This document shows positions 2,109 to 47,874 of a stretch of 64,000 nucleotides of DNA, piece by piece. Origin of the DNA: Ehretia macrophylla (taxonomy: Eukaryota; Streptophyta; Magnoliopsida; Boraginales; Ehretiaceae); contig CM075768.1 of assembly GCA_037974665.1 (NCBI GenBank), positions 11,585,001 through 11,649,000 on the forward strand, written 5' to 3'. The position numbers and the translations under genes are program-made. Within the stretch, counting starts at the first letter, position 1. The number at the start of each line of letters is the position of its first letter. A model generated the notes under the pieces. That model searched no databases and had not been told where the DNA came from. It worked only from the letters and a program-made list of their open reading frames with translations.

Positions 2109-4550
2109 TGTGAAACCCCACTTATCTGCTTTAACTTGATTTACGTGCTTTGTCTAGTTTTGTGTACATATGACCTGTTTATGTGCTATAGGGCCTAGAA
2201 TGTTATAATTTTGATATCAATACTCCTAATACGTGCTAAATGTGCGTTCATGAAATTTTCATCAAAAAACGGAGTCAGAAATTTTATCGTCGATTTTTAG
2301 TGAATAGTATTTTCGAAACACGTCCGCTAAAATTTTGAAACTGGTATTTTTAACCCTTCTAGACCTATACCACAGACTTTAATAGACCTGTGTTTGATGA
2401 AAATGGTTTTAAAATCGGCTTAAGAATTTATTAGGGTTTTTACACCGACTTTTGCGAAAATCAAGTTTTAAGCCGACTCGGGTGAAATTATTGGATTGTA
2501 AAACTTCTTGTCACCTAAAAATAATTTACTTGAGCTATCTTAGGAGTTGCATTTTTGTTTTGAGCAAGGAGTTAGCTAAAATGCATTTAAAAGACAAGAA
2601 AATGAATTAAAGGACTAAAATACTACTTTGACTTTGCATTTTATTTATTTGACCAAGCTTTTAATAGCGTTTAGTCATCAACACACACTCAACACAACAC
2701 AAAACACACTCCACACACACACAAAGGGCCGAGAGCCATAGGAGAAAAAAAGCCAAAGAGTTTCAAGGTTTTCCAAGCAAAAATTCAAAGAAAAACCTAG
2801 TTTTTGTCCGTAGAACTTCGTGCCGACATGGATTCTGCTTGTTGGGCACGCATTGCACACATTCCTAGGCATATATCGCATCAAAGGTGAGAGAAAAATT
2901 CTAGATCTCAAAACTCAACTTTTGTGTTTTTGCGTATAATTGAAAATCGAACCGTTAGAATTCTAATCTGATGATAGATTATTTCTCCTTGCATGCTAAG
3001 GATCATTTAGCTGTAATACTACAAGTTTTTATCGGTTGTAGCATAATTTTTATTTTTCGGGTATTTAAATTTGATTAAATTGTTCAATGTTGATTTAATT
3101 GAGTTGTGTTGATCGGAATCGATTGCCGTCGATTTCTAAATGTTTGATAATTACGTGGTAGCTCCGTTGTAATGCCGAATTTTCAATTATGATGTTTGGG
3201 TGAAAATCCGGAAAATTCAGCCTTGACACCTTAGGGTTTTAGAGTTATCGGGCATGATTTGGAGGTGTTATGGTGGTTTTCCGAAGGGGCTAATGTAGAT
3301 GGTTGAATGGGTGAGTGTTTGAAACTGATTTGGAGTTGTTTGGATTAGTAGAATGTAAGATATGATTAATTGAAGTTTAGGTTGTCTTTCTTTAAAATGT
3401 TAGATTGAGCCTTAGTTGATTGGGTGTGGGTTGAGTGATTGAATTGTGAGTTGTTGATGGGTAAATTAGAGTTTGATTGTGTGTTTAATGCATGTTCGGT
3501 TAGATGGCCTACTTTGTCATCTAACTTAGTTGTTTGTTGTTTAATTAAATATTGATGTTATATTGATTGATTATTGAGTACGGGAATCGAGCACTTTTGT
3601 TGCTGATCTCCCAGATTATTGATTGATGATTGATTGAATATTGATGATTGTTATGGAGTCTTGGTATGTGTGTGCCACCTCTCGGGCAGCGTTGGGCTGT
3701 CGGGTTGAAAACGGCATGACTGCCAGAGACTACCCCCAGCTCGCATGACGGAGGTGTCATGGAGGGAGGGGCTAGTGAGGTACCTCGGGTGTGTGAGTAA
3801 TGGGGAGTTATAAGAAGAATGGTTGAGATCGTGATGGCGTATGGAGCTACACCAACTAGAGTATCCTTTATTGAATGGTTATATAGTTATGTGATGATAG
3901 TATTATTTATGTTATTGTGTGTTTACTGACTCAAAGGATTATTCCAAGGAGTTTAGTAGACCTTGCTCAAGATCTATCGGATCCTCGTTGGGCTTATTTT
4001 ATATAAGCTCACTCTCTATTATTGCATGTTTACAGGTGTACTTTCACAAGATTACGGGTACGTGCCTCCTGAAGATGAGAATGTGGAAAACGTGCCTTAC
4101 GTGGATGAGTCCTATGTTCCAGAGTCTTATCCGTGATGTCGTACATGTTTTATTATCTTGTAAATTAACATAGTAGACTTTTATCTACTTTGTAGTTTAT
4201 AATGTATGAGTTGTTGTTAAGTTAATGAATTAGTTGATGTTGTCTTAGTAGCATTTCTTTTGTTTATGATTAGGCTGCTAGATTGGCTCAATATGTTTTT
4301 GGTATTGTATAATAAGGTTTATGTATTATGTTGGAACGGAGGCGTATAACGAGGAATGATTATTGTATAATATAGTCATGATGTATGTTGTATTTATTGA
4401 AGAGTTGTTTATTGTATGGTTTATGTAGTTGAGGTATGATGTCCTATGGAGGTTGGTTTAGAACCTCGGTATCTTATTTACTGTCGTTATACTGCCGAAA
4501 TTCCATTGTGTCCTGATTGGTTATAGGAGGGGTCGAGTTGAGGCGTGACA
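2109..4550 (+). repeat. 5' LTR of Tekay-2
   Basis: A 2442-bp LTR starting TGTGAAACCCC and ending GGCGTGACA, thus with TG...CA termini. It matches 8731-11171 base for base over long stretches. Short open frames inside it (for example 3545-3760 minus and 3919-4173 plus) recur in the other LTR and are not genes. Confidence 0.95.
3660..4007 (+). promoter_or_regulatory. Conserved GC-rich block and TATA-like box in Tekay-2 5' LTR
   Basis: In an AT-rich LTR, 3660-3790 is a GC-rich island that includes the 10-bp palindrome GAGGTACCTC at 3777-3786. About 210 bp downstream lies TATATAAG (4000-4007). Both recur in the 3' LTR (10398-10407; 10621-10628), in the Tekay-1 LTR (13160-13169; 12936-12943, reversed) and in solo LTR I (61144-61153; 60919-60926, reversed). 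I infer this is the LTR promoter region; no transcript start can be seen. Confidence 0.5.
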
Positions 4551-16455: not shown

Positions 16456-18389
16456 ACTCTTTTGTTGTAAATATTTATTTAAATTATGTCGTTACATGTA
16501 CTCTATAAATCTTTCTCTAGCTTTAGGTAGTTTGGATTTTAGCCTTGAGGAACATTCATAGAGGTACCAGTGTTAGTCTACTAGTAGTCACTGTATGTTT
16601 TTGTGTACGGTTGGCTTAGTTGTGCAACTCTGTCTTATAGTGTGAGCTATTCCACCAACTTAATGTGGTTTGGGTCTGTTGGATATTACTTGATAAGGTA
16701 GTTTGGAGTGTGAGCATACACCAGACGTAACGTCTGTGACGTAAAACCCCACTGTAATAAACCTTGACCCTGTGGAACTGGCTTTGGCCTTAAATATGCC
16801 GAAGGAAAGCACTAGATGTCGTGAGCACAAAAACCTCTGGAAGAGCTAGTCTGTTCAGTAGTATCAACTCTATAACCCTAAAAAAGAGTATAAATGGTCT
16901 GGGTAGTTTATTTATTTGCTTTATGTCTTAGTTTTATTCCTTGACCGTAATTCTTTTTGATTATCCCCTTATACTATTTTGTATAGATTAACTAACTAAC
17001 TATTTTTTGCTGTGTTGATGATAATCTGTAAAATGCTTTTTCTACTAATCATTAATTGCAGAATGATACATCTTTTGGCAAAAGTTAGTAGAAAAGCTTT
17101 GACATCAACATATAAATACTTCACATCAGGTGATATATTTCCTTACTACATTTCCCTTTATAACTGATCAACATGCGCTATAGAGTAAGCAAACCATAAG
17201 TTTAGGGATGTAGCATGTCATTATGTTATTACTTGTATATTACACTCTCACTGTCTTACATTGCTATTTGCTTGAGGACAAACAAAGTTTCGGTATGGGG
17301 ATGCGTGTATTTCATGAAAATCTTTTTTCAAAATATGCAAGAAATACACCATTTTGTTCATGAGAAATAGTAATTTGCTACCTTACTTGTTTAAAGGAAG
17401 ATGATTTAGATGATTTGAGAACCTGTGTTATTAGCTATATATTGTGAAAAACTCTTAGGAAACTCTGCAAGAGAAACTTTGGGGTACTGTATTCATTAGT
17501 AAGCCTAGTTGTTCTTCTTTTCTTCAATTGATAGGTATATGATTATGAAAGGACTGAGATAGAATTACCATTTGCTATGAGAATTTTTTGTGATTGAAAC
17601 CTGAACCCTTATGCCATGTTTGTACATTATGTTTTGTTACTATGTTTGTATGTACACTCTGGATTAAAAAAAAAGAAAGAAAAAAAAAGAGAGTTGTACA
17701 TACATTTGTTGATTGAATAATCTTGGTGTAAATATGTTGTAAATCTCTATGCACCACTATCCTAGACATTGTAATTTGGGATATGTGCTATAGTGTAAGG
17801 TTTTGAGCCTGGATATCTCGGGTGATTAAGGCACGTAGGGGTCCTTTTAAAACCTAGCAACCTCAATCATAATGACGGGAGATTGTTGGCCTTAAAGCCC
17901 GCTACATGGGATATTCAGAAAGCAAAGAGAACTGAACACTATAAAGAGATAGTATAATGTTGTACTTTTATATTTTCTGGAAAATGTAAAAAAGGGTAAA
18001 GCATGATCAAGAGTTTAATTACAAATAAGGTGAGAATATCAAAGTCCAATCTGTTTGCATGACTTTAAAGTTGGGAGTTGAATGAACTTAATTTGCTTAG
18101 CTTACTTCTAAATATGTACTCCAAAGCAATCAATAGTCCATTTTCAATACGAGTATCTATTTGAGAAAACTATGTACAAGGTTCTTTTATCATGTTTATC
18201 ATTAATTGATGAATAGGTTAAAGGTAGTGAACTGCATTTCTCATGCTACATGTTGAAAAAAATTTCACAAAGGATAAGTTAGATTATTTTCAGCTGTTTT
18301 GACTTGCAAATTTTTTTGAAAATTTCACTTTAAATCTGTTTTAAAGACAGTCTTGCTTGAGGATAAGCAAGGTTTAGGTTTAGGGATGT
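16456..18389 (+). other. Non-coding 3' region of element A with two polypurine-type motifs
   Basis: No coding region is supported here. A CTTGAGGACAAACAAAG...GTATGGGG motif at 17271-17300 resembles the one that normally precedes the LTR, and a second copy (18356-18386, CTTGAGGATAAGCAAGG...) stands right before it. Between them is an A/G-rich run at 17668-17695. The whole layout recurs in both halves of element B. Confidence 0.75.
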
Positions 18390-20295
18390 TTATGTGACTG
18401 TATTTGCAACACTCAAACCTTTGTATTTGTACTGCATTTGCATCTTAACTCTGGAATAAATGCAACACTTTGATACTTTCGATGCAATGTAGGAAAATAC
18501 TGAAAAGTGGAAAATCAGACCTGAAATGATCCAAATTGCAAGTCAAGAAGTAGGAATGGGGAAGCACGGGAACCAGTGGAAGAATGAAGTTCATAGAGAA
18601 GAAATTTGACCGAAACTAGCACGAAATCAAACTCGAAACATTGACCTGGATGATCTTGAATAGCGACCTATTTCCTTTTTTGACGAATCATACCAGTTTT
18701 TCGGGTAGAAATAGCCTTCTGAGCAAAATGCAAGACTCTGCCTTGCGCGCAGCGTGATTTTAGCCAAATTCTAACATTTGGAGGGTCCAAATAGTGAAAA
18801 ACACTTGAAAATGGCTCGGTCAAAGTCAAAATTCAAGAGCCAAAAAGTCAGGAAAAGGGCGCTCGATCGTATCCTACTAGGCATTCGAGCACCCCTCAGA
18901 GAAATTTCCACAACGTTCCAGAAGAAAACATGTAGCGCATAATTGATAATTAAGCAGACGCTTGCTCGAGCGCGCCTTACTGGCGCTCGAGCGCACCTTC
19001 AGAGTCTTCCGAAAGCAACATGTGGCGCGCTGCAATTTGACGCAACAGAAGCGTGCTCGAGCGCGCTAAACTGGCGCTCGAGCGCGTCTATGATTTTTTG
19101 TCTATAAATAGACCCCCCCTCCCTCCGAATTTTGTAATTAATTTTGGGATATTATCAATATTTTTGGTATAATTCCGAGTTAATTCTAGTTAGTTTTAAA
19201 TTAGTTGTAGTTAATTAATTAGTAGGATACGGGAGAAATCCCAACTAGGTAGTTCTTATTTGGAAAAATTTTGCCCGAATAGCTACTTTTAGGGAGAAGT
19301 TTGACCCAAGTAGTTATTGTTCGGGGGAGGTTATGCCTAAATAGCTTTCAATAGGAAAGCTCTTATTCGGGAGAAATTCATCCCTAGTAGCTCTTATTCG
19401 GGGAAAAATTAGCTCCGCCTGAATAGCTATTTTGTGTCAGACCTCTGCTCAAATTTTGAGAATCAGAAATACGCATTCGTTGATACGGGGGAGCCTTTCT
19501 TGACTCTCTTTTATTTGCAGAATTCGTATTCAATTATGTATGAGTAGATTGATATCTAGGGGATAATATTGTAAATGTTAGTCTTTTAATATATGGTCTC
19601 CGATTCAGTTTATTCAATTCTAAATTGCAATATATGGCTTGGTTTAATTCAGTATTGTCTTTCATACGTAATGCTTTTAAGTAGATGTTATGATTGTTTT
19701 ACTTTCATGTCATAATATTATGCTTGTAGTTGATATTATGATTACGTTACTTTCGTGCCTTATAAATGTTTTAATCATGAATCTATAGGTTGTACCATAG
19801 ATTCCATGAGACTATAGGTTGTACCATAGTTTCTACCTGTAAGGTTAGTTCCTTAGTTTAGTTTGACTTGTTGTACTTGGTTAAAATGAACTAAGTAGAT
19901 TAACTAGGTACTATAACTTTTAGTTTGACCAGGTGTATGCTTGTAGCTTAAGCCCTTGCATAGAATTAGATCAACTGGATGACGAGCCTATATTAGTTGC
20001 CTCATTTACATGTTCAACCCCTAGATCACTACCCCTCGTATCCACACTTAGTTAGTTTAACTTAGATAAATTAGTTAGTTTAATTTAGTTTAAAATCCTT
20101 ACACAAACCCACCTTGCGTTCTGTCACTTAAGCACTTTAACATTTTCACACTACTTCACTAACATTAACTAACGAGTTTCCCTATGGTACGATTCCGCAC
20201 TCCTAGCACACTACAATATGAAGATCTTTGCACTTGTAGGTTATGAAAACTTGGTCATTTTGCACCTATTTATAACGCACCGTTTGAACGCATCA
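18390..20295 (+). repeat. 3' LTR of Athila-like element A
   Basis: A 1906-bp LTR ending GCGTTTGAACGCATCA-type sequence (catca at 20291-20295). Its start is worn but aligns with the TGATGTGAC starts of the element B LTRs after the polypurine-type tract. The tail block (TGGTCATTTTGCACC to the end) is shared almost word for word with element B. The next five bases (20296-20300, GTTGG) would be its TSD, but the other end is outside the window. Confidence 0.88.
18855..19110 (+). promoter_or_regulatory. GC-rich palindrome array and TATA-like box in LTR A
   Basis: Two near-identical hairpin units, GCTCGAGCGC (18964-18973) with GCGCTCGAGC (18983-18992), and again 19055-19064 with 19074-19083, lie 91 bp apart. 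A worn further unit is near 18858. TATAAATA follows at 19103-19110. The high GC stands out in an AT-rich LTR. I infer an upstream promoter (U3) module. Confidence 0.65.
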
Positions 20296-21944
20296 GTTGG
20301 TCTAAGACATGTATTTTTCTACTTCAAGTACTATGTCTAAGTCATACACCCAACTTTTGAAATTATACCCAATCAAAATATTCGTGAAAAGATAATGGGT
20401 AGTTAACCTTAATCAATATTCTATGAAGCGATCTTTGACAAAAACCCCACCGAAAGGGTTGTTGCTCCTATCAACACTTCGATTGAAACTCGTTCTAGTA
20501 TAATCTTGTTAAGTCTTAGTAAAGAGACTACCCTCCGAAGGGAACGGCCCACATACAGGTGAGCTCAGAATTGGTCCCACTATTAGCATAGACCAAAACG
20601 GAAAACCATAGGGTTATTTCCAAATCCCCTTTCCCACTTGATCTTTTATAACCAAGGGTTTTTACTTATAACTAGTCTTTGCAATTTAACCTTTTAAGTT
20701 TTAAATCTAAGAAAGCTCGATCCTTAAATCCTTGCTTTTAAAACTTTACCTTTAATTGCAATAGTCGCATACCTATTCGGGATTAGGTAAGACAACTTAG
20801 GTATCTAGTTAATGTTTGGTTTCTAAGGGCATCTCCCTAACCAATTATGAAATCGATAACCTCAAACTATGTTGATCTAGGTGTCGATTCGATTAACTAG
20901 CCATACCTAATTAAGGTTATCTAGGATTTAGCCATTTTTAAATCCTAATGATTGGTCATGCTACTAGGTGTTTCATGTTTATACATCCATTCAAAATAAG
21001 GCATCATTCACAATTTCAAAAAGTAAAGACATGCATCCATACACCACGACCCTTTCCTTGATGGTTCCTTGTACTTTCCATTTTCGAATATGGAAGTTGC
21101 CATTCTTGGAGCTTTCTATTTTAGGAATGAGAATCTTATCGTAATTACAACAAGACTCCTTATCTCATCAAAATCTCCAAGAGTCCTTGTGGATAAAGAA
21201 TTCTGCCACAATCTAGGAGTCTTATATTTGGATGAGCATCCAAGTTTCCTACTGCCAAAAGAATTCTTATCCTAATCACGACAAGACTATTATCTTATCA
21301 AAATCTCCAAGAATCCTTGTGGATGAATAAATCAGCCACAATCTAGGAGTGTTAGATTTGGATAAGCAACCAAGTGTCATATTGTCAATAGAACTCTTCC
21401 ACCACCATACTCTACCGCTCCACCCCCTATGGAGAGTTAGGACAACCATAAACTTTCCTACACCACCACTGGTTCCTCAAGAAAATCATAAAAAATAGTC
21501 TGCAAAAATTCTGCACTACTTCCTTGACTTGGCTCGTGTGATTCTCGGCATTGTACAAGCATTTTATGTAATAGAATTGCAAAATACAGCAAACCTATCT
21601 ATTACATATGGTCATATGCTTCACTATGAAGCTTACATTCAACTATATAAACGATTTAAAGATTACAAACCAATTGGATAAACCATTAATCCAATAATCA
21701 TACATAGACCATTAAAGCTGAAAAATCAGAACCATAACAATTACCATGCATTCTAACCATCAAGGAAGAGTTATTATAGGCTGCAAAACAAGGGTTAATA
21801 ACCTTATTCATCATGCAATAATCCCACATATCGTAGCACACAAAATCAGTCTGCACTTAGCCTAAGCAGTCCGCCAATCATGGACTCTCTAGCATTTTTC
21901 CAGTAATTCTAATGCAATATTTTAACATGTATTGCGTTTGGTGT
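20296..21944 (-). mobile_element. Leader of copia element D (Ty1/copia fossil)
   Basis: Lies directly inside the PBS of element D, so on the minus strand it is the untranslated leader. No coding frame is supported. A segment around 20500-20600 has the CTCCGAAGGGA-type wording that also marks the long leader of element E (43960-44200), which supports a related copia family. The stretch stops at the LTR edge of element A, so the gag and pol of D, if present, lie outside the window. Confidence 0.65.
21131..21400. repeat. 130-bp tandem duplication inside the D leader
   Basis: 21131-21260 and 21261-21390 are two direct copies of a 130-bp unit (GAATCTTATCGTAATTACAA... versus GAATTCTTATCCTAATCACG...), sharing CATCAAAATCTCCAAGA and GCCACAATCTAGGAGT. 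A third copy begins at 21391 with GAACTCTTCC and then stops. Divergence between copies is noticeable, so the duplication is old. Confidence 0.85.
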
Positions 21945-23872: not shown

Positions 23873-25145
23873 ACATTTCCCTTTATACCTGATCAACATA
23901 TACTGAAGAGTAAGCAAACCATAGGTTTGTGGATGTAGCATTTGTCATTGTGTTGCTACTTACATATTGTAATCTCACTTGTTTTACATTGCAATTTGCT
24001 TGAGGACAAACAAAGTTTTGGTATGGGGGTACAAAGTGTTGCATGATACAATTTTTCAAAAATATGTAAGAAACACACTATTTTCGTGAGAAATAGTAAT
24101 TTGCTACCTTACTTGTTTATAGGAGGATAAGTTAGATAATTTGAGAACTTGTGTTTTTAACTATGTATTGTGAAAAACTCTCAAGAATGTCTACAGAAAA
24201 ACTTTGGGTTACTGTATTCATAAGTTAAACTTAGTTGTTCTTTTCTTCAATTGATGAAAATTTGAATTTGAGAAGAATGAGATAGGATTACCGTTTGTTA
24301 TAAGAACTCCTTGTGATTGAAACCTGAACCCTTATGCCATGTCTGTACAGTATGTTATGTAACTTTGTCTGTATGTACACTCTGGAAAAAAAAAACAAAG
24401 AGGAAAAGAAAAAACAAAGAAAACAATGAAAAATATATATAAAAAGGAAAAAAAAGTTATACATACCTTTGTTGTTGAATAAATTTTTGGTGTAAATATG
24501 TTGTAAATCTCTAAAGCACCACTATCCTAAACATTGTAATTTGGGATATATGCTATAGTGTAAGGTTTCGAGCCTAGATATCTCGGGTGATTAAGGCACG
24601 TTGGGGTCCCCTTAAAACCTAGCAACCTCGGCCATCTGGATAAGGATTGTTGGCCTCAAAACTCGCTACATGGGATATCCAGAAAGTAAAGGAAACTAAG
24701 CACTAAAAAGAGATAGTTTTGAGTTGTATTTTCATTTTGGCAAATAAAAAGGGTGAAAGCATGATCAAGGGTTTGATTACAAATGGGTAAGAGTATCAAA
24801 TTCTAATCTATTTATATATTCTGAAAGATAAGAATGTTTGGACTTAATTTGCTTAGATTTCTTCAAAATACTTACTCCAAAGCAATTGATAGATTAATTC
24901 TAAAAAAGTTGTTTTTTTTTAAAACTGTTTAAAGGTTCACTTGTAATTCTTGTTATTTACATATGAACTTGTAAAGAAAGGTGAATTACATTTGCTCATG
25001 AACTCATTTTGACAAAGGTTAGGAATAAAGTTGCATTTATCTGCTTTCAAATTTGAACTTGTAAAATCTTGAGGTTTTCACTTTTGAATCTGTGTGCTTT
25101 AAAGTAGTTTTGCTTGAGGACAAGCAAGGTTTACGTTTGGGATAT
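23873..25145 (+). other. 3' internal region of the first unit of B
   Basis: Matches the 3' internal region of the second unit (about 29060-30327) and that of element A. It holds the upstream polypurine-type motif at 23999, an A/G-rich run at 24385-24455 and the terminal motif at 25113. No coding region is seen. Confidence 0.8.
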
Positions 25146-26864
25146 TGATGTGATGATATTTGTACCACTCAAACCACTAAATTTGCACTACTATTGCATC
25201 TTAACTTGTGGAATTAGTGCAACACTTAATACATTTTTGATGCAATGTCAGTTAATCTTTAAAAGTGAAGAAATCGATCTTAAAATGGAAAAATGCAAGT
25301 CAAAGAATTGTGCGATGGCAAAGACTCGAGAATCAGTGGTTGAATCAATGCCCGTAGAAGAAGAATTTGGCCAGATCAAGTGCAAATAATGACCTATGTC
25401 CGTTTTTGACAAACCGTACCAGTTTTTCGGATAGAAACGGCCTTCTGAGCAAAGGCAGGATGGCGTAATTTTACCCAAAATCCATCGTTTGAACGGTCAA
25501 AACAGTGAAAAATGACCGAAAACTCCTCGGTCAACGTCTCGGTCAAAGTCAACAATCGGAGCCACAAAAGTCAGCAGACGGGCGCTCGAGTGCACCTCAT
25601 TGGCGCTTGAGCGCCCCCTATGTGAGGCGTGCTCGGCGCCCCCTATGAATCTTCCACCATATTTCAAAAAATCCACGTGGCGCAAACTCAATGATGGAGC
25701 AGAAGTGCGCTCGAGCGCGCCTCATAGATTCTTCCAGAAGCCTCGTGAAGCGACACGTGTCGTAAAACCAACAGACGTAGCAGAAGCGCGCTCTCTGAAC
25801 CTCAGGCCTATAAATACCCCCCAACCTCAACGGAAAATGGATAGAAAATTAATTTAGGATTTTATTTTAATTATTTTTAATTTCTTTTTTAGTGTTAGTT
25901 TAGGGTAGTTTAAATATGGTAGTATAAATAGTTAGTAGTTGGGGAAAAATACGGCGGAGGTAATGCCCGAATTTTTGGGGCATAGGAAAAGGAGAAAATC
26001 TCGTAGCTGTGCTTAGGACTCCGACCTCGACATCATTTATGGGGGAGCATCTTTTTAATCTCTTTTATATTTGAATGTCGTTATAATGCCCGTGTTAATT
26101 CAGGATTTTGATTATATATTAATGGTCTTTTAATTTATCGGTCTTCATGATTTGGACTCATTTAATTCATATGCATTATATGACTTGTATTAATTAAGTA
26201 TTGTCTTTCATACATAATGCTTTTAAGTAGATGTTGTGATTGCTTTATTTTCGTGTCATATATCCATGCTTTAATAGTGAATCAATAGCTTGACAACCTT
26301 AAAGAGATCCATGCTTTTAAGTAGACCATAGTTTCTAAACTAGAAAGGAAACGTTAATTACTTAGTTGAAACATACCTTTTACACCAGGTTGCAAGGACA
26401 GTTCCATACTATGCCTCCAATGCTCGTAGATGGCACAGCACCTACATCAGAGTTAGTAATCGGGATTTTAATAGACTAAGATAATTGACTAGATTAATGC
26501 TTATAGCTTAACCTCTTGCATATAATTAGAGAATCCTATTTTTGACCCTAGATTAACTACCTTAATATTAATCCGAGTTTAATTACTACCTTCCCATATT
26601 TATACTCCCAACTCTAACTTTAATTCAGTTAACTTAGTTTAGTTTAGTTTTAATCAAAACCCATCAATCTATCTGTCTTTACTTTTCAACACTCACTTAA
26701 ATCACTTTTATACGCACTTATTCAACTGAACTAAACATAGGAGCCTCCCTGTGGAATTCGACTCCGCACTCAGAGCATACTATACTACGAAGATCTGTGC
26801 ACTTGCGGGTTATTAGAACTTGGTCATTTTGCACCTAATTATAACGCACCGTTTGAACGCATCA
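25146..26864 (+). repeat. Middle LTR of element B
   Basis: A 1719-bp LTR starting TGATGTGATG and ending GAACGCATCA. It serves as 3' LTR of the first unit and 5' LTR of the second. GC-rich palindromic motifs at 25580-25800 precede TATAAATA at 25809-25816, as in LTR A and the last LTR. Confidence 0.92.
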
Positions 26865-28767: not shown

Positions 28768-30327
28768 ACTTTTAAATGCTTTTGTGTGTTTATTTTCCCT
28801 TGTTTGTGTAATTTTATGCTTTCTTTAGTCCTCCGTATTTATTTTTGCTTACGTATTTATAGGAATTTTATTGAAATCATGTTGCGTGCTTGTAGCAACA
28901 TGTTCACAATTGCTGAAACTGATGATAAATCTTAAACTATTTTGTCTACTAATCTTTAATGAGGTTGCAGAATGATCCATGTTTGGACAAAGATTAATAG
29001 ACACATTCTTTTTCATCAACATTTAATTGCTACAAATCAGGTGATATCTTTCCTTACTTCTACATTTCCCTTTATACCTGATCAACATGCACTGAAGAGT
29101 AAGCAAACCATCGGTTTGGGGATGTAGCATTTGCCATTGTGTTGTTACTTACATATTGTACTCTCACTTGTTTTACATTGGTATTTGCTTAAGGACAAGC
29201 AAAGTTTTGGTATGGGGGTACAAAGTGTTGCATGATACAATTTTTCAAAAATGTGTAAGAAACACACTAGTTTCATGAGCAAGAGTAATTTGCTACCTTA
29301 CTTGTTTATAGGAGGATAAGTTAGATAATTTGAGAACCTGTGTTTTTAGCTATGTATTGTGAAAAACTCTCAAGAATGTCTAAAGAAAAACTTTAGGTTA
29401 CTGTATTCATAAGTTAAACTTAGCTGTTATTTTCTTTAATTGATGAATATTTGAATTTGAGAAGAATAAGATAGGATTACTGTTTGTTATGAGAATTCCT
29501 TGTGATTGAAACCTGAACCCTTATGTCATGTCTGTACAGTATGTTATGTTACTCTGTCTATATGTACACTCTGAAAAAAAAAGGAAAAGAAAAAACAAAG
29601 AAAACAAAGAAAAAAAATAGAAAAAGGAAAAAAAGAGTTGTATATACCTTTGTTGTTGAATAAATTTTTGGTGTAAATATGTTGTAAATCTCTAAAGCAC
29701 CACTATCCTAAACATTGTAATTTGAGATATGTGCAATAGTGTAAGGTTTCGAGCCTGGATATCTCGGGTGATTAAGGCACGTTGGGGTCCCTTTAAAACC
29801 TGGCAACCTCGGCCATCTGGCTGGGGATTGTTGGTCTCAAAGCTCACTACATGGGATATCCAGAAAGCAAAGGAAACTAAGCACTAAAAAGAGATAGTTT
29901 TGAGTTATATTTTCATTTTGGCAAATAAAAAAGGGTGAAGGCATAATCAAGGGTTTGATTACAAATAGGTAAGAGTATCAAAGTCTAATCTATTTATATA
30001 TTCTGAAAGATAAGAATGTTTGAACTTAATTTGCTTAGGTTTCTTCTAAACGCTTACTCCAAAGCAATTGATAGATTAATTTTAAAAGAGTTGTTTTTTT
30101 TTAAACTGTTTAAAGGTTAACTTGTTATTCTTGTCATTTACTTATGAACTTGTAAAGAAAGGTGAATTACATTTGCTCATGAACTCATTTTGACAAAGGT
30201 TAGGAATAGAGTTACATTTATCTGCTTTCGAATTTGAACTTGCAAAATCTTGAGGTTTTCACTTTTGAATCTGTGTGCTTTAAAGTAGTCTTGCTTGAGG
30301 ACAAGCAAGGTTTAGGTTTGGGGGTAT
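28768..30327 (+). other. Non-coding 3' region of B, second unit
   Basis: No coding region. Upstream polypurine-type motif at 29188, an A/G-rich run at 29574-29636 and the terminal motif CTTGAGGACAAGCAAGG at 30294 directly before the LTR. Confidence 0.8.
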
Positions 30328-32086
30328 TGATGTGACGATATTTGTACCACTCAAACCACTGAATTTGCACTACTATTGCATCTTAACTTGTGGAATTAAT
30401 GCAACACCTAATACATTTTTGATGCATTGTAGGTTAATCCTTAAAAGTGAAGAAATCGGTCTTAAAACGGCAAAATGCAAGTCAAAGAATTGTGCGATGG
30501 TAAAGACTCGAGAATCGGTGATTGAATCAATGCCCGTAGAAGAAGAATTTGGCCAAATCAAGTGCAAATAGTGACCTGTGTCCATTTTTGACAAACCATA
30601 CCAGTGTTTTGGGTAGAAACGACCTTCTAAGCAAAATGCAGGACTTTTCTCTGTGCGCGGCATGATTTTAGCCAAAATCCATCATTTGGAGAGTCAAAAC
30701 AGTTAAAAATGCCCGAAAACTCCTCGGCCAACATCTCGATCAAAGTCAACAATTGGAGCCAAAAAAGTCAGCAGACGGGCGCTCGAGTACGCCTCACTGG
30801 TGCTCGAGCGCCCCCTATGAATCTTCCACCATCTGCCGAAAAATCCACGCGGCGTAAATTCAGCGATGGAGCAGAAGCGCGCTCAAGCACGTCTCACGGA
30901 TTCTTCCGAAAGCCTCGCAAAGTGACATGCATCGCAAAACCAACAGATGCAGTAGAAGCGTGCTCGAGCACGCTTACTGGGCGCTCGAGCGCGCCTCTGA
31001 ATCTTAGGCCTATAAATACCCCCAACCCTAACGGAAAATGGATAGAAAATTAATTTAGGATTTTATTTTAATTAATTTTAATTACTTTTTTAGTGTTAGT
31101 TTAGGGTAGTTTAAATATGGTAGTATAAATAGTTAGTAGTTGGGGGAAAATACGGCGGAGGTAATGCCCGAATTTTTAGGGCATGGGAAAAGGAAGAAAT
31201 CTCGTAGCTGTGCTTGGGACTCGGATCTCGGACCTCGACTTCATTTATGGGGGAGCATCTCTTTAATCTCTTTTATATTTGAATGTCGTTATAATGCCCG
31301 TGTTAATTCGGGATTTTGATTATATATTAATGGTCTTTTAATTTACCGGTCTCTATGATTTAGACTGATTTAATTCATATGCAATATATGACTTGTATTA
31401 ATTAAGTATTGTCCTTCATACATAATGCTTTTAAGTAGATGTTGTGATTGTTTTATTTTCGTGTCATATATCCATGCTTTAATAGTGAATCAATAGCTTG
31501 ACAACCTTAAAGATTCCAAGAGACTATAGATAATACTTTTAAGTAGACCATAGTTTCTAGAGTAGAAATGAGACATTAATTACTTAGTTGAAACACACCT
31601 TTTACACCAGGTTGCAAGGATAGTTTCATACTATGGCTCCAATGCTCGTAGATGGCACAACACCTAGATCAGAGTTAGTAATCGGAATTTTAATAGACTA
31701 AGATAATCGACTAGGTTAATGCTTGTAGCTTAACCTCTTGCATAGAATTAGAAAATCCTATTTTCGAGCCTAGATTAACTGCCTTAATATTAATCCGAGT
31801 TTAATTACTACCTTCCCATATTTACACTCCCAACTTTAACTTTAATTTAGTTAACTTAGTTTAGTTTAGTTTTAATCAAAACCCATCAATCTATCTGTCT
31901 TTACTTTTTAACACTCACTTAGAACACTTTCATACGCACTTATTCAACCGAACTGAACTTAGGAGCCTCCCTGTGGAATTTGACTCCGCACTCAGAGCAC
32001 ACTATACTACAAATATCCGTGCACTTGCGGGTTATTAGAACTTGGTCATTTTGCACCTAAGTATAACACACCATTTGAACGCATCA
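30328..32086 (+). repeat. 3' LTR of element B
   Basis: A 1759-bp LTR, TGATGTGACG to GCATCA. GC-rich GCGCTCGAGCGC-type motifs at 30775-31000 precede TATAAATA at 31011-31018. It is followed by TSD copy CCTTC at 32087-32091. Confidence 0.92.
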
Positions 32087-40951: not shown

Positions 40952-40958
40952 TGGTATT
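40952..40958 (+). other. Primer binding site of copia E, split by solo LTR J
   Basis: TGGTATT stands left of solo LTR J and GTATCAGAGCC right of it (42777-42787). The shared five bases are the TSD of J, and together they show a Met-tRNA type site two bases after the LTR. Confidence 0.88.
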
Positions 40959-42776
40959 TGATCGTAACTCGGTTGGCGTATAAAATGTGTGCAAAATTTA
41001 ACCAAGTTTTAAAACCCGCAAGTACATGGATCAATGTAGTGTAGTGTGCTTTGAGTATACACAGGGAGGCTCGTAAGCTTGTTCGTGAAGTAGTGTCAAA
41101 AAATGTTTGAGCAAGTGTGTGAAACAAATTGTGAGTTGGATGAAGGTTTTGTGAAGTAAAATGAAGTTTTAAACTAAATTACAGTTTTGTCAAACTCGGG
41201 AGAAAAGATCTAGGGGTCAGATATGCAATGAGGCAATTAATCTAGGCTCAAGTTTAGGATTCCTTGATTCAATACTTGGATTAAGCTACAACCTTAACCT
41301 AGTTAATTTTCTAAGTCTAATTAAGTCCTGGTTACAATTTAATTATAGGTGTTGTTCTATCCTCGAGTTCATTATGTAGTCGAAGTATAGATCTGTCCTT
41401 ATAATTTAAGTGACCGGGCAAATTAACTGAACTAAGTCATTAATAATTTCACAATTAGAAATTATGGTACAACCTTTAATTTCATAAAAACTATGGTACA
41501 ACCTATAGATTCACTATTTAAAGCTCGGATATATGGCACAAATGTAAAGCAGTTATAACATTAACTACAATTATAATGAATATGAAAGACAATAATGAAT
41601 TGATAACGAAAGCCATATATAACATTTAAATCAAATTATCCGAATCTGACACCGTAAATTAAAAGACCATCATTTACAATATCTTCCCCTAGATAATAGA
41701 TCTACTCAAACATTAAAATTAAATACGAGCTAAACAAATAAAATAGAGTAAAGAAATGTTCCCCCATTAGATGAACACGTATTTCTGAACACTGGTTTGA
41801 AGCAGAGGTTCCATGGGCGTAGCTACCGAGGTTTCCTTCAATTAAAGTGTCCCCCGCCATGTAACTACCCGGACAGAATGTCCCCCGTGTTTAACAAAGT
41901 AAAATTACAATTAATCTAACCTACTACAAAACTAACCTAACAAGAACTAAACAAAAATTCTAACTTAAAAACTTGAATAAAAATATTAAACTAAAATAAT
42001 TAATAAATATATTAATCCAAAAATAAATTATATATTTTTTCTTGGACTTGGAGGGGTATTTATAGACCCTCCCCCAAATTTCTATTGGACCCTAAGAGGG
42101 GTCCAATTAGAAACAAAGGATTGTCGTGGTCCTTAAAGGACCACAACAATCATATTTTTTTGTCAAAATTGGAGGTCCAATTTTTCATTGGACCTCTTGG
42201 ATTGCCATGGTCCAATCATGGACCATGGCAATCCAATTGCATTACCGTGACTCAATTGAGTCACGCCATTGGAAGGCTTAGGTGGCCAATTAAAATGACC
42301 GCCCAAGACTTGTGCCAAGCACAAGCCACGGTCCAATTAGGACCGTGGCTTATTGCCCATGTGGCCCTTGTGTGCTTGGCACACATGTAGCCCAATCACG
42401 GGCCACAGGCTGGGTAGTGTCCACCTATGTGGCCCCTGCTAACTGTATAGGCCCGGTACCGACTGTGTCAGCTCAGACAAAATTCTAAAATGGGCTTTTC
42501 TGGCTAAGTTTAATGTCCTGGGGTTGAATCTAGGCTCGGTTTGACTCAATTCCTCTTCTTTGGGCTTCATTTTTTTGTCACCGATTCTTGAATCTTCTCC
42601 GTTCTTCAACTCCTTGACTTGCAATTTGACTTGTGTTTTGGGCTCGGTTTCTTCACTTTCATGAGCAACCTACATTGCATCAAAATTTTATTAAAAGTGA
42701 TATTTTATTCTTCGAATTAAGATGCAAATTTAGTGAAAAAATAATGATTTAGGTACTGTAATTTAAAGTTATATCA
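40959..42776 (-). repeat. Solo LTR J, Athila-like, in the PBS of copia E
   Basis: An 1818-bp LTR in reverse orientation. Left edge TGATCGTAACTC and right edge ATATCA match the worn ends of the Athila-like LTRs; the blocks next to both ends (GTGCAAAAT...ACCAAG and ACATTGCATCAAAA...AAGATGCAAATT) are reverse complements of blocks in LTR A. TSD GTATT (40954-40958) / GTATC (42777-42781). TATTTATA (42057-42064, reversed) fits the promoter position. Its palindrome region differs fully in sequence from those of A and B. Confidence 0.87.
42084..42406. promoter_or_regulatory. Cluster of perfect hairpins in solo LTR J
   Basis: At least eight inverted repeats in 323 bp: 84-92/99-107, 126-134/136-144, 172-181/187-196, 197-214/219-236, the 20-bp palindrome 246-265, 309-315/319-325, 325-334/340-349 and 369-375/379-385 (add 42000). 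The longest is an 18-bp perfect stem, TTGGATTGCCATGGTCCA, with loop ATCA. The cluster begins 20 bp upstream of the TATA-like box on the LTR's own strand. The stems differ from each other, so this is not one repeated motif. A regulatory or structural role is inference. Confidence 0.8.
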
Positions 42777-42787
42777 GTATCAGAGCC

Positions 42788-44309
42788 ACTGCGAATTAAA
42801 TCATGAAAATAGTTAAACTAGTTTAATTGTTTAGTAGTAGAAACTAAGAAATAATTTAAGTACACTAAAAAATTCAGATTTGTTTAATGCTTTTGATGCA
42901 TGGAATTATGTGTTCTTATTAGTTTCTATATTTATTAGAATTAATTGTTGGTAATTAATTCATATGTGGTTTTGAATTAGGAATTAAATTATTTGTTTAA
43001 TAGTAGTTTAAAAGGTTACAACTAATAGTTTTTGAAACCACTTTAAACTCCCTAAAATTAACTAAGGAATTTATGGAATAAGGTTTTCCTAAAATTTCAC
43101 GATAAAAATTCCAGCGGAATTAGAAGTCATACCAATGCAACTATTGGTTATAGAATTAGATTAGATAAATTATAAGAGTTAATCCAAATTAGCCAAGGAA
43201 TGTGACAACACAAAAAAAATAAAAGATAAAAAAGATAATAATGGAGGGGCAAGCGTGCGCGCGACTGAGAGGCATGCATACTCATGTGCGGCCACGCGTG
43301 CAGCGCCAACCCCCTTTTTAATTTATTTTAACTTTTTTTATTAAATATTTTTGTTGTTTATTCACATGGATTAATATAAAATATTTTTTACGGATACTTT
43401 GTTTTGACAAAGTGTAAAATATTATTTATGGGAGTAATTAATAATTAATTGTTTATTAAATTCTAGAAAATAAATTTTGCTAAATTATGTGTTTTTTACA
43501 TAATTAATTTATCTTTATTTAATTATGCAAAATTGGTTAGCATTAAGTTTACCTTATAGGATTGAATTATAGTCAATCCTATAAATATAAAAATTAAGCT
43601 CTTGATAGTCAAGTCAAATAATTGATCTAAATATTAGACTATAAATATTTAAGTCTAAAGATTAATTAAATTAAAGATTGAAGTTGGTTAAGGAAAATAT
43701 TAAGATGATTTTTTTGCCTTAGAAACCTAGACTTGACTAAAGACTTATAGAAAGCCCTACCTAGGGTTAGGTGAATGACTCAGATTATGTTTATATGATT
43801 TAAATATTGTACTTGAAAGGCTTTAGACAAAATGATTATAGGCTTTAATCTAGCTTTTAGGAAAAACCAGAATTAAGTATTGAAGAAAATTATTCTTAGG
43901 AAATCCCACGGCTTTCCATAATCGGTTCATGTTAAAGGGTGATGTCACCTCGCCTTACCATGCAGTATGCTCCCTACGGAGGGTGACATTATTCCTAGAC
44001 TTAGCGATTTAATCTAAAATTGGGAATTCACATGAAAGATGTTAGTAGAGTGACCACCCTACTGTGGAGGTCTAGGCTATAGATCATTTTATAGATATTG
44101 ATAAGAGTAACCTCCCTACGGAGGCTTGAGTCTGAATTATCTAAGAAATCCCATAAGGAATTGTATTTACACTCGACTTAAGATAGGTAGTAACCTCCTA
44201 CGGAGTAAGTGCTATCTAATCTTGGGAAACATAATTTAATAGTAATAGAGTAATCACTAGGGCACTAGTCATAGTTGAAAGGGTTATCTATGTTTGTGTA
44301 CTTGTATTC
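42788..44309 (+). other. Leader of copia element E
   Basis: About 1.5 kb between the PBS and the gag frame, with no coding region. It is AT-rich apart from 43245-43320 (GC-rich, GCGTGCGCGCGA), and it contains several CTCCCTACGGAGG or CCTACGGAG dyads (43965-44200). The leader of element D has related wording. Confidence 0.7.
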
Positions 44310-45083
44310 ATGAGTTCTTATTACATTATCTCATGCAAGCTATATATATCTTACATAATTTGCTCATACTTAATTATGTTGCATGAATATCCAGATAATA
44401 TAACAGGCTATTTTAATCATGTGTTGGTTATTCTTTCGAATGATAAGCTGACTGGCCCAAACTTTAGTGATTGGAAAAGAACGCTAAACATAATACTCAC
44501 TACAGATAGGTACAAATATGTCTTGATTCAGCATTGCCCTCAACTGAGGGATGATTCTACTGATGCTGAAAAGGAGTCCCATGACAAGTGGCAGAGGACA
44601 GATGGCATGGCTAAGTGCTATATGTTAGCCTCAATGTCTGACATGTTGTTGATACAACATAAGAGCAAAGCTACTGCTGCAGAAATCATGACCTCATTAA
44701 CTGAGATGTTCTCAGATAAGAATAGGCCTGTAAAGCAAGTGACAATAAGGGAGATCATGACAGCCAAGATGGTAGAGTGTTTGTCTGTAAGAGAACACAT
44801 TCTTAAGATGATGGACAACTTTAGACTCGCAGAAGTCTTAGGGGCCCAAATTAACAATGAAAGTAAGGTAGACATGATTCTTGAGACACTGCCTAAATTT
44901 TTCTCCCAATTCAAGCTCAACTACAACATGAGCAAGATAGATATGGGTCTCACTAAGCTAATGAAGGAGCTTCAGGCAGTTGAGGCAATCATGAGGCCCA
45001 AAGGTCAAGCCCATATGGCCCAGGCATTCTCTTATGGACAAAACCCAAAAGGCAATAAGTTCTTGAAGAAGGGGAAACAATGA
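44310..45083 (+). pseudogene. Copia E gag region
   Basis: The best-kept coding part of E: a 257-residue frame. From about residue 35 it reads VILSNDKLTGPNFSDWKRTL, then DKWQRTDGMAKCYMLASMS and VREHILKMMDNFRLAEVLGA, the plant copia gag domain (UBN2-like). It ends basic (GNKFLKKGKQ), and a worn zinc-knuckle trace follows (about 45125-45205). The first 20 or so residues look unrelated, so the true start is probably nearer 44377. It would form the particle shell. Treated as a fossil. Confidence 0.85.
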
Positions 45084-47874
45084 AATAGTAAAGGCCCCAG
45101 CTAGTAGTGGGCAAAAGAAGAAGAAGTTTGCACATAAAAAGCCTAATGGGAAGTATTTTGAGTATAGCCAGAAAGGTCATTAGAAGAAAGACTGCCCAAA
45201 GTACCTAGCCAAGAAAAATAAAGGCACGGACTTTACTTGTGTCATTGAAACAAGTTTGGTGGTTGATTCTACAGAATCAAGGATAGTAGATTCTAGAACC
45301 ATTAACTGCGTCTGCATTACCATGCAGGGGTTTCAGGATATGAAGAGGCTAAGTAAAGGTAGATTCGCTCTGAAGGTTAGCGTTGAAGCGATAGTCTGGG
45401 CTGCTGCAGTTGGAATAGTTGTTTTATTATTTAGTGATAGTTTTTAGAATAAGACGATATTTATCATGCTCCATACATGAGAAAGTTTAAGTTTGATGTT
45501 TGTTTTAAAATGTTACTTTTGTTAAACTTTCAATTCATTTTATTATTAATAGAAAGATTTTTATAAGTCTAGAAATATGCATGATATATTTATTCTATCT
45601 CTATCCAACTATTTTCAATTTGCGATTATGTAGATTTTGAATACTCAAGTTCCTTTTAGAAAAAGAAAGATTTCATTATCCAATGGCTTGTACTTGTGGA
45701 ACCTATGATTCGGGTCATATAAACCTGAATAGATTCAGAATTTGGTTGAGGATGGGCTCTTGGGCTCATTAGATCTCGAACCATAGGCTCAGTATGAATC
45801 TTGCCAAGAAGATTAGGTGGCCAAAAGGCCATATGCTTTCAAATGGCATAGGTCAATAGTAGTGTTGGAATTGGTGCACACTGAGGTGTATGGTGGACCC
45901 ATGAGCACACTAGAATGAGGTGGTTTTAGCGCCTCTTGGGTGAGTTTAAGATAATCATATGCAATAGGGAATTGTGTCTTAGTATACTGTGCCTACCACT
46001 CCTCAGCATAATGGTGTATCTAAGAGACGAAATTAAACCCTCACTAGATATGGTAAAATCCATGATAAGTCATACGACTCTACCTATATCGATTTTGGGA
46101 TAAGTTTTAGAGACGACAACATATATCTTAAACTAAGTGCCTTCTAAATAGGTACCTAAGCCACCTTATGAGTTACAGACGGGGCGCGAGCCCAGGTTAA
46201 GGCACATCCGCATTAAAGGGGTGTCCAACTTATGTACCAAGTAGTTCTGCATCCAAGCAGGAAGCCAAAGTCTAAGATGTATCGTTTCATAGAATGTTCT
46301 AAAGGAACAAGTGATAGGATTTCTGCCATCCTAAGGGGAAAAAGGGTGCAAATAGGTTCCCATGCTAGAGACTTGGAGGATAGTAGCGTAATTCATTGAG
46401 AGTTGAATACAGAAACTACACTTAAGGAAGTTACTTCTGAGACTTCCATTACACCTGCACCTATAAATGAAATAGTAAATTCTTTTTGAGTACCCCGGAG
46501 CCTTATCGTAGTGGGTAAATATCAAGACAACCAGATTGATACTATGGAGAGTTTTTTGAGGTAGTCTCTAATCAGGTTAACAAACCCACTGATAACGATA
46601 AAGCAGTAACGGACATAGATGCTAACCATTGGCACAAGACAATGGGACCTAAGTTGGAGTCCGTGTATTCCAACAAAGTCTAGAATCTTGTAGTTGCACT
46701 AGAAGGAGTAAAATTCGCAAGATGCAAACGGGTCTACAAGAGTAAGAGATGAATGGACAGGACAACTAGGCTAGTGGTGAAAGAATACACTCTAAAGAAG
46801 GTATCAATTGTGAGGAGACTTTCCCACTAGTAGCCAAGCTAAAGTCCATAACGATTCTCTTAGCCATCGCTTGTTATTATAACTATAAGACCTAGCAAAT
46901 GAACGTCAAGACTACATTCTGTTATAGAAATCTTAATGTAGGCATCTATATAAAGAAACCAGACAAATCCATTGCGAAAGCCCAAAAGGACTTAGTCAAT
47001 AAACTTTAGAGGTCCATCTATGGATTCCAACAAGCATCTAGGATATAGAACATTGCATTCAATGTAGTAGTCAAAGTCGTTGATTTTGAGGAGAACATTG
47101 ATGATCCATGCATGTACAAGGAAAAAGAATAGCAATGTTGTTGTATTACTTGTCTTCATGTGGATTACATCCTACAAAATTTAGGGACGTTGTAAGGATG
47201 TTGATACTCATAAAGGTTTGACTATCTTCTCGAGTTTTGAATGTGGACTTAAGAGAAACTAGCTATGTTTTGGGGATTAAGATCATACAAGATTACTAGA
47301 ACAAGGTACTAGCGTTATCTCAAGCTACATATGTTAAGAAGATGTTTGTTTAGTTTAACATGTAAAACTCCAAGAAGGGTTTGTTGCCCTCTAGACTTGG
47401 AGCTACACTTTTCAGATAACAGTGCCCCAAAATATTTGAGAAAAAAGTAAGCATGAGATAGATTCCATGAGCGCCATCAATTGGCAGTTTCATATTCTTT
47501 ATGTTGTGTACTAAACTAGATAGCATTCAAACATAGGACATGATTACTAAGTAGTTGTATAACATATATTCAAGTATCTTCGGAGAACAAAAAGACTATA
47601 TGTTAGTTTACAAGGCTGAATATATAATAAACTAGCACTTAAACAAAGAATCAAGGATACGTAAGAAATGCAAGTTTTAGAGAGAATGTACCATTTACTC
47701 TGGGGATATGTCCAGGAAGGAGACACGGTGATAGATAGAGTTTCCTTTGCAAGTGACTTAACAGATCCTCTTGTTAAGATTCTTTTGAAAAAGGTCTCTT
47801 CTGTAGATATTGAGTCAGTTGGGGTGAAGCAATTACGTAGTGTAACCTAGTGATCTTTCGTGCAAATAGGGGTC
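45084..47874 (+). pseudogene. Copia E pol region, heavily worn
   Basis: Short traces only: protease-like wording near 45200-45310, integrase-like fragments (about 45850-46280), reverse-transcriptase-like fragments (about 46600-47400) and an RNase H tail (DLTDPLVKILLKK, about 47755-47800). The order is that of Ty1/copia, with integrase before reverse transcriptase. The purine-rich AAATAGGGGTC at 47864-47874 is the polypurine tract. The region is too damaged to assign domain limits. Confidence 0.7.

Follow-up and report, generated by a model that had tools for sequence, protein, structure and literature searches.

Density of perfect stems in the tract

What makes, or keeps, so many perfect hairpins in the 323 bp at positions 42084-42406 of the stretch of Ehretia macrophylla DNA analysed here (64,000 nucleotides, hereafter the window) is the question raised by this locus, which lies within a long terminal repeat (LTR). 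Perfect stems were counted greedily and without overlap (stem of at least 7 bp, loop of at most 12 bases), yielding 7 stems of 7-18 bp with 75 bp paired in the tract, whereas 1000 dinucleotide shuffles of the same sequence averaged 0.4 stems with 2.9 bp paired and did not go beyond 3 stems or 22 bp. The five densest 323-bp tiles of the whole window (step 50) all overlapped 42084-42406, and the minus strand of the tract folded with an MFE of -190.4 kcal/mol (z -17.5), a value matched by 0 of 100 shuffles. A preliminary description of the locus had listed an 18-bp stem (4-base loop) and a 20-bp palindrome, which are present at 42197-42236 and 42246-42265, respectively, and had put the number of hairpins at eight or more, which agrees with the 7 non-overlapping stems once overlapping perfect ones (e.g. 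42309-42325 and 42165-42184) are added; with imperfect hairpins included, the total is about ten. The shuffled controls that it had proposed did not come near this density in any of the 1000 cases. Its statement that the stems are unlike each other holds in part, as several share GGTCCAAT/ATTGGACC and two of them, S2 and S4, have the greater part of an arm in common. As a separate observation, the next-densest stem region outside the tract lies at about 43301-43770 of the window, has at most 43 paired bp per 323-bp tile and is A+T-rich by eye.

The hairpins of this LTR (family J) were assigned to slots S1 to S10. S1 (42084-42107) has a 9-bp stem, and S2 (42119-42151) a 9-bp perfect core in a longer stem whose one mismatch would read as G.U on the sense strand (by eye). 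S3 (42172-42196) has a 10-bp stem; S4 (42197-42236) and S5 (42246-42265) are the 18-bp stem and the 20-bp palindrome given above. S6 (42277-42307) is imperfect in J and perfect in other family copies, L025 among them, S7 (42309-42325) has a 7-bp stem with a 3-base loop and S8 (42323-42351) a 12-bp stem. S9 (42352-42368) is represented in J by one half only (by eye), the other arm being absent; it is whole in copy L011. S10 (42369-42407) combines a 7-bp stem at 42369-42385 with a broken TGTAGCCC...GGGCCACA stem.

Boundaries, insertion site and orientation of the LTR

The region from 38 to 47 kb was compared with loci of the same genome, and homology was found to begin at 40955-40959 or to stop at 42776 in many of 20 family loci. 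The segment 40959-42776 has TG...CA ends and is flanked by GTATT on the left (40954-40958) and GTATC on the right (42777-42781), a target-site duplication that matches at 4 of 5 positions, or reads GTAT if the LTR is taken to start at 40958. An uninterrupted insertion site was found in L021, a relative of the sequence that hosts J. Taken together, the breakpoints, the ends, the flanks and the intact site therefore identify J as a solo LTR of about 1818 bp. Its host is an older plus-strand Copia element, split at its primer-site region; this element was traced through 42777-45180 of the window, with a gag domain (Retrotran_gag_2) in 44391-45083.

By eye, primer-site sequence follows the 40958 end in L009, L010 and L029 and, in degraded form, in L031, and a purine tract lies past the 42776 end in L030, L033, L034 and L035; the sense strand of J is therefore the minus strand. 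The TATA box CTATAAATA (42057-42065) is accordingly read on the minus strand, from 42065 to 42057, and the stems do lie upstream of it, as the preliminary description had said. In sense-strand positions the tract spans 371-693 and CTATAAATA starts at 712, so that the hairpins belong to the U3 of J, and about 19 bp separate the last of them from the TATA box downstream.

Conservation of the hairpin train among family copies

A set of 30 copies from the same genome was assembled (J and L009-L038 without L021), chosen among the best of the matches to J that were listed, a choice in which J-like copies are over-represented. Matches to the hairpin slots were obtained in 29 of the 30, L016 having none. 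The tracts of these 29 copies, whose limits were set by matches to the hairpin references and are thus biased towards stems, folded with z values of -4.3 to -18.9 versus -3.1 to +1.9 for 28 adjacent stretches of equal length (25 shuffles each). The exact TATA word TATTTATAG (plus-strand reading) was located near the tract in 19 of the 30 copies, a match elsewhere in L036 being set aside by hand. In 13 of these 19 the perfect stems of at least 8 bp exceeded all 100 shuffles; L028 was reached by 1 and L024 by 11 of 100 shuffles, and no such stem was present in L014, L016, L019 or L020. Slot order did not vary among 25 of the 29 copies, the exceptions being a single hairpin matching two slots (L022, L034 and L035) and S2 standing before S1 (L036). 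Every copy is without some slots, and S3 occurs in 7 copies. Stems decay or are deleted in single copies. Members without the stems had been named in the preliminary description as a refutation: by the strict count 4 of 19 copies have lost their perfect stems, and the family as a whole keeps them.

Paired changes and decay after insertion

Pairing between the arms was scored as the share of Watson-Crick cells and compared with 500 partner shuffles, a comparison in which kinship can exceed shuffles without any structure and for which the structure of each slot was taken from one copy. In S5, 80.1% of cells were Watson-Crick versus 72.2% after shuffling (20 copies, 18 pairs; L022, L029 and L010 were left out as rows of other slots), and in S6 83.6% versus 75.9% (15 copies, 15 pairs); S2 and S4 pooled gave 87.8% versus 83.0% (29 hairpins, 14 pairs), and in all three cases 0 of 500 shuffles reached the observed value. 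L035, a near-duplicate of L034, was omitted from these sets. Neither S2 alone nor S4 alone rose above its shuffles, and the pooled signal therefore lies between two related boxes. Covariation did not exceed shuffles in S8 (382 of 500 reached the observed value; L034 was also removed, its hairpin being S4) or in S1, S3, S7, S9 and S10, some of which vary too little. The paired changes may thus be read as support for kept symmetry, short of proof. The check for paired changes that the preliminary description had called for came out positive in S5, S6 and the S2/S4 pool and negative in most slots taken singly, S2 and S4 included.

Between J and its near relatives, compensatory changes made up 1 of 16 changed pairs for L009, 1 of 15 for L022 and 0 of 5 for L010. 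The fate of the stems after insertion could be followed in L029 and L030, which were treated as the paired LTRs of a single element on C13, since a primer site adjoins one and a purine tract the other; their flanking 5-mers are alike by eye (CCTGC and CTTGC) and they are 91.5% identical. In their tracts, with S4 left out of the count because a longer stem overlaps it, 15 pairs had changed, of which 0 were compensatory and 12 were single-sided breaks; in addition, L030 has lost 17 bases from one S4 arm. In this pair, therefore, the host genome has not maintained the symmetry of the stems, and it must be the replicating lineage that maintains or forms them. Of the copying or correcting process earlier suggested, a host-genome form finds no support in the same 0 of 15, and one acting within the retrotransposition cycle is possible. 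As for the companion suggestion, selection for dyad symmetry, the keeping of such symmetry is supported in the replicating lineage, where 29 of 30 copies match parts of the train and the paired changes in S5, S6 and between S2 and S4 were equalled by 0 of 500 shuffles.

Classification of the element

The interior of L016 and L009 was scanned for protein domains in 6 pieces, of which 2 matched a family and 4 none. In L016, RVT_1 was found in 2017-2421 and rve in 3441-3974 on the same strand, with reading frames broken by stops; reverse transcriptase thus precedes integrase in this one relative, which is the Gypsy order. Beside the primer site of L009, the copy closest to J, the protein wording STQEQAK..TLRSGKK is the same as in L016. 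The primer site itself, (T)GGCGCCGTTGC-like, adjoins the LTR end in L009, L010 and L029 and is more degraded in L031 (by eye). It corresponds to the 3' end of tRNA-Asp. The pattern of that tail occurs at 10 places in the genome, and the three that were fetched are all tRNA-Asp(gtc) genes. A tRNA-Asp primer site is typical of Athila, and the placement as Athila within Gypsy is our assumption from primer site and protein wording. These sequences place the J family in Ty3/Gypsy, and we call it Athila/Tat-like. The Athila ORF-1 domain PF03078 was matched neither here nor in any of 14 control genomes; in PMC6317226 this domain is reported from 16% of Athila elements, an additional RNase H of archaeal type is given as the mark of Tat, and a tRNA-Met primer site is assigned to most Copia groups.

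Membership in the Sireviruses (Ty1/copia), which the palindromes suggested, was considered and rejected. The order of RVT_1 before rve in L016 is not that of Copia, and the primer site corresponds to tRNA-Asp instead of tRNA-Met. The Sirevirus polypurine octamer AGGGGGAG followed by AT/TG, as given in PMC2829016, was not seen at the sense-strand junctions of L030 (TTTAGGGATGT|TGATG) and L033 (TTTGGGGATGT|TGATA), read by eye. At least eight copies of one CGG-CCG palindromic repeated motif (RM) with a CpG island were likewise not found: the palindromes of J differ among themselves, a CGG-CCG core occurs by eye in S8 only, and the observed/expected CpG ratio of the J tract is 0.32, without a CpG island. 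According to the same paper (PMC2829016), RM is absent from some Sireviruses. A Sirevirus feature that J does have is palindromes shortly upstream of the TATA box. A side observation concerns the junction of purine tract and LTR, beside which a short hairpin (CTTGCTTG TCCT CAAGCAAG; 7-8 bp of stem, 4-base loop) occurs at about 30290-30309 of the window and also in L030; it recalls the Copia inverted repeat described for this junction (PMC2829016).

Sequence words and sister LTRs

Eleven words were counted in the 29 tracts and compared with shuffle means, the counts being inflated by palindromy and shared descent: CCAAT (148 versus 46.4), GTGGNCC (48 versus 7.2), TGASTCA (26 versus 0.5), GGWCC (202 versus 22.3), CCATGG (78 versus 18.2) and CACGTG (18 versus 1.5) were enriched, and the W-box TTGAC (9 versus 12.4) and TGACG (2 versus 3.0) were not. 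The enriched words are candidate sites for NF-Y, TCP or bZIP factors. By inference from these words, the tract would most likely function as a promoter-proximal array of factor sites.

Three sister LTRs with plus-strand sense are present in the window at about 18380-20305, 25000-26860 and 30200-32080, and align piecewise to the J LTR at about 65-80%. Boxes of the GCGCTCGAGCGC type occur just upstream of their TATA boxes (3, 2 and 3 matches) and nowhere else in each LTR. Paired bases as high as observed were obtained in 2 and 4 of 300 shuffles for two of these LTRs and in 49 of 300 for the first (18380-20305). Eight relatives of the third sister LTR, among 41 matches listed, have between 2 and 5 boxes each, with CTCGAG at the core, and boxes are paired 21 bp apart in 5 of the 11 LTRs formed by the three sisters and these relatives. 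The box excess is weak in several sister-type LTRs, 122 of 200 shuffles being as high for L050 and 72 of 200 for L046. The sisters and J thus have the position of the palindromes in common and differ in their words, as is reported for Sireviruses.

Comparison with known palindromic LTR regions

The preliminary description knew of no named plant LTR module of this kind, which is too strong: Bousios et al. (2010) described palindromic RM boxes just upstream of the TATA box in 13 Sireviruses (PMC2829016). According to that source, the boxes of a single element resemble each other, most have a CGG-CCG core and each element has at least eight; their sequence varies between elements as their position is kept, a regulatory role is proposed, and none of the other Copia elements examined there has them. 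The J tract resembles them, as so described, in position and symmetry; it differs in that its boxes are less alike within the LTR, have arms of up to 20 bp and a CpG ratio of 0.32, and in that the family has Gypsy order and a tRNA-Asp primer. Box I of Tnt1, a dyad-symmetric retrotransposon activator mentioned in the same source (PMC2829016), is comparable in being a symmetric motif in a retrotransposon promoter, a likeness by description and not by sequence. The open-licence literature, outside which most subscription journals lie and part of whose text was available, contained no description of a palindrome train in the U3 of Athila, Ogre/Tat or other Gypsy LTRs. The best reading is that the J tract follows a known palindromic promoter-box design, but in another superfamily and with stems that are less alike. 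Finding this architecture in the corresponding position of Gypsy LTRs suggests that the two groups have converged on one promoter design.

Proposed function and alternative explanations

On balance, we lean towards the explanation that the tract is a promoter-proximal array of palindromic boxes in the U3 of an Athila/Tat-like Ty3/Gypsy element, with a cis-regulatory role and with symmetry kept while the element is active. The boxes, some ten in number and for the most part in a constant order, stop 19 bp short of the TATA box on its upstream side; dimeric transcription factors would bind them as cis-regulatory DNA sites and so drive transcription from the LTR. In an active lineage symmetry would be kept because each half-site matters, and in a dead or solo copy such as J the stems would drift. 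New boxes would arise by copying of older ones, as the common arm of S2 and S4 suggests, and be lost by deletion. In its favour are the stem density, the train kept in 29 of 30 copies, the paired changes in S5, S6 and the S2/S4 pool, the 0 of 15 compensatory changes after insertion, the equal folding of the two strands, the enriched words and the other palindromes at the same place in the sister LTRs. Against this explanation stand the absence of covariation in S2 alone, S4 alone, S1, S3 and S7-S10, the few compensatory changes near J, word counts raised by palindromy and kinship with W-box and TGACG words not enriched, tract limits that favour stems, and the fact that a dimeric factor does not need perfect symmetry over 18-20 bp.

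A possible but distinctly less probable explanation is a copying process, in which fold-back or template switching during reverse transcription makes and re-copies inverted repeats with little selection. The long perfect arms and short apical loops are in its favour, as are the coming and going of hairpins and single arms among copies (e.g. the 17-base loss in L030), the relatedness of the S2 and S4 arms within one train and the paired signal confined, for that pair, to the comparison between the two slots. However, a copying bias alone would not be expected to hold the train upstream of the TATA box with none in the adjacent stretches, nor to give sister LTRs other palindromes at the same place. 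A further possibility, of low probability, is that Athila-like Gypsy elements and Copia Sireviruses each evolved their palindrome trains upstream of the TATA box separately, and that the Gypsy arms are kept alike by arm-to-arm copying in the retrotransposition cycle. If so, such copying would let long perfect palindromes become unlike each other in sequence without losing their own symmetry.

RNA folding of the tract, as part of the U3 with which the genomic RNA ends at its 3' side, could serve export, packaging, stability or 3' end formation. It would account for the very stable sense-strand fold of J (MFE -190.4, z -17.5) and for several mismatches in J that, by eye, could pair as G.U on the sense strand. 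Selection on RNA is expected to tolerate G.U pairs on the sense strand only. However, the sense strand did not fold better than the antisense strand among the 29 copies, being better in 11 of 29 (p 0.47) and, after correction for composition, in 13 of 29 (p 0.85); in the adjacent control stretches the sense strand folded better in 23 of 28, which was put down to composition. The lean of J itself towards sense-strand G.U mismatches (by eye) is not shared by the family: over 1900 cells, which include a few mis-slotted S5 rows, 102 mismatches would be G.U on the sense strand and 84 are of the opposite kind, and the slots disagree. The asymmetry of G.U versus A.C was therefore rejected as an RNA signature, and the strand comparison shows no difference. 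The equal folding of the two strands suits a constraint on DNA better than one on RNA and speaks for a cause that is DNA-level or strand-symmetric; RNA structure is an unlikely explanation.

Host silencing, in which the hairpins would be recognised as double-stranded RNA and give rise to small RNAs, as a liability or by-product, has a precedent in maize, where small RNAs are reported to concentrate on the palindrome-rich cis-region of Sirevirus LTRs (Bousios et al. 2016, via PMC5311732 and PMC10760457). The J tract resembles that hotspot, so far as these sources describe it, in having palindromes in the LTR cis-region and differs in belonging to a Gypsy rather than a Copia family. Silencing would account for a consequence and not for the kept symmetry, and it is quite improbable as the cause. 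Chance or composition is already refuted by the 1000 shuffles, 0 of which came near the observed stem density, and its probability is negligible.

The promoter-box explanation and its rivals can be separated within this one genome: its natural variants of the tract number in the tens and include at least one pair of 5' and 3' LTRs, with which selection on DNA symmetry, RNA folding and copying bias could be told apart. Finally, three family copies on C2 of the same genome (G000), at 51437542, 51518890 and 51600574, lie at intervals of about 81 kb, and two of the three have the same match score, which suggests segmental tandem duplication.
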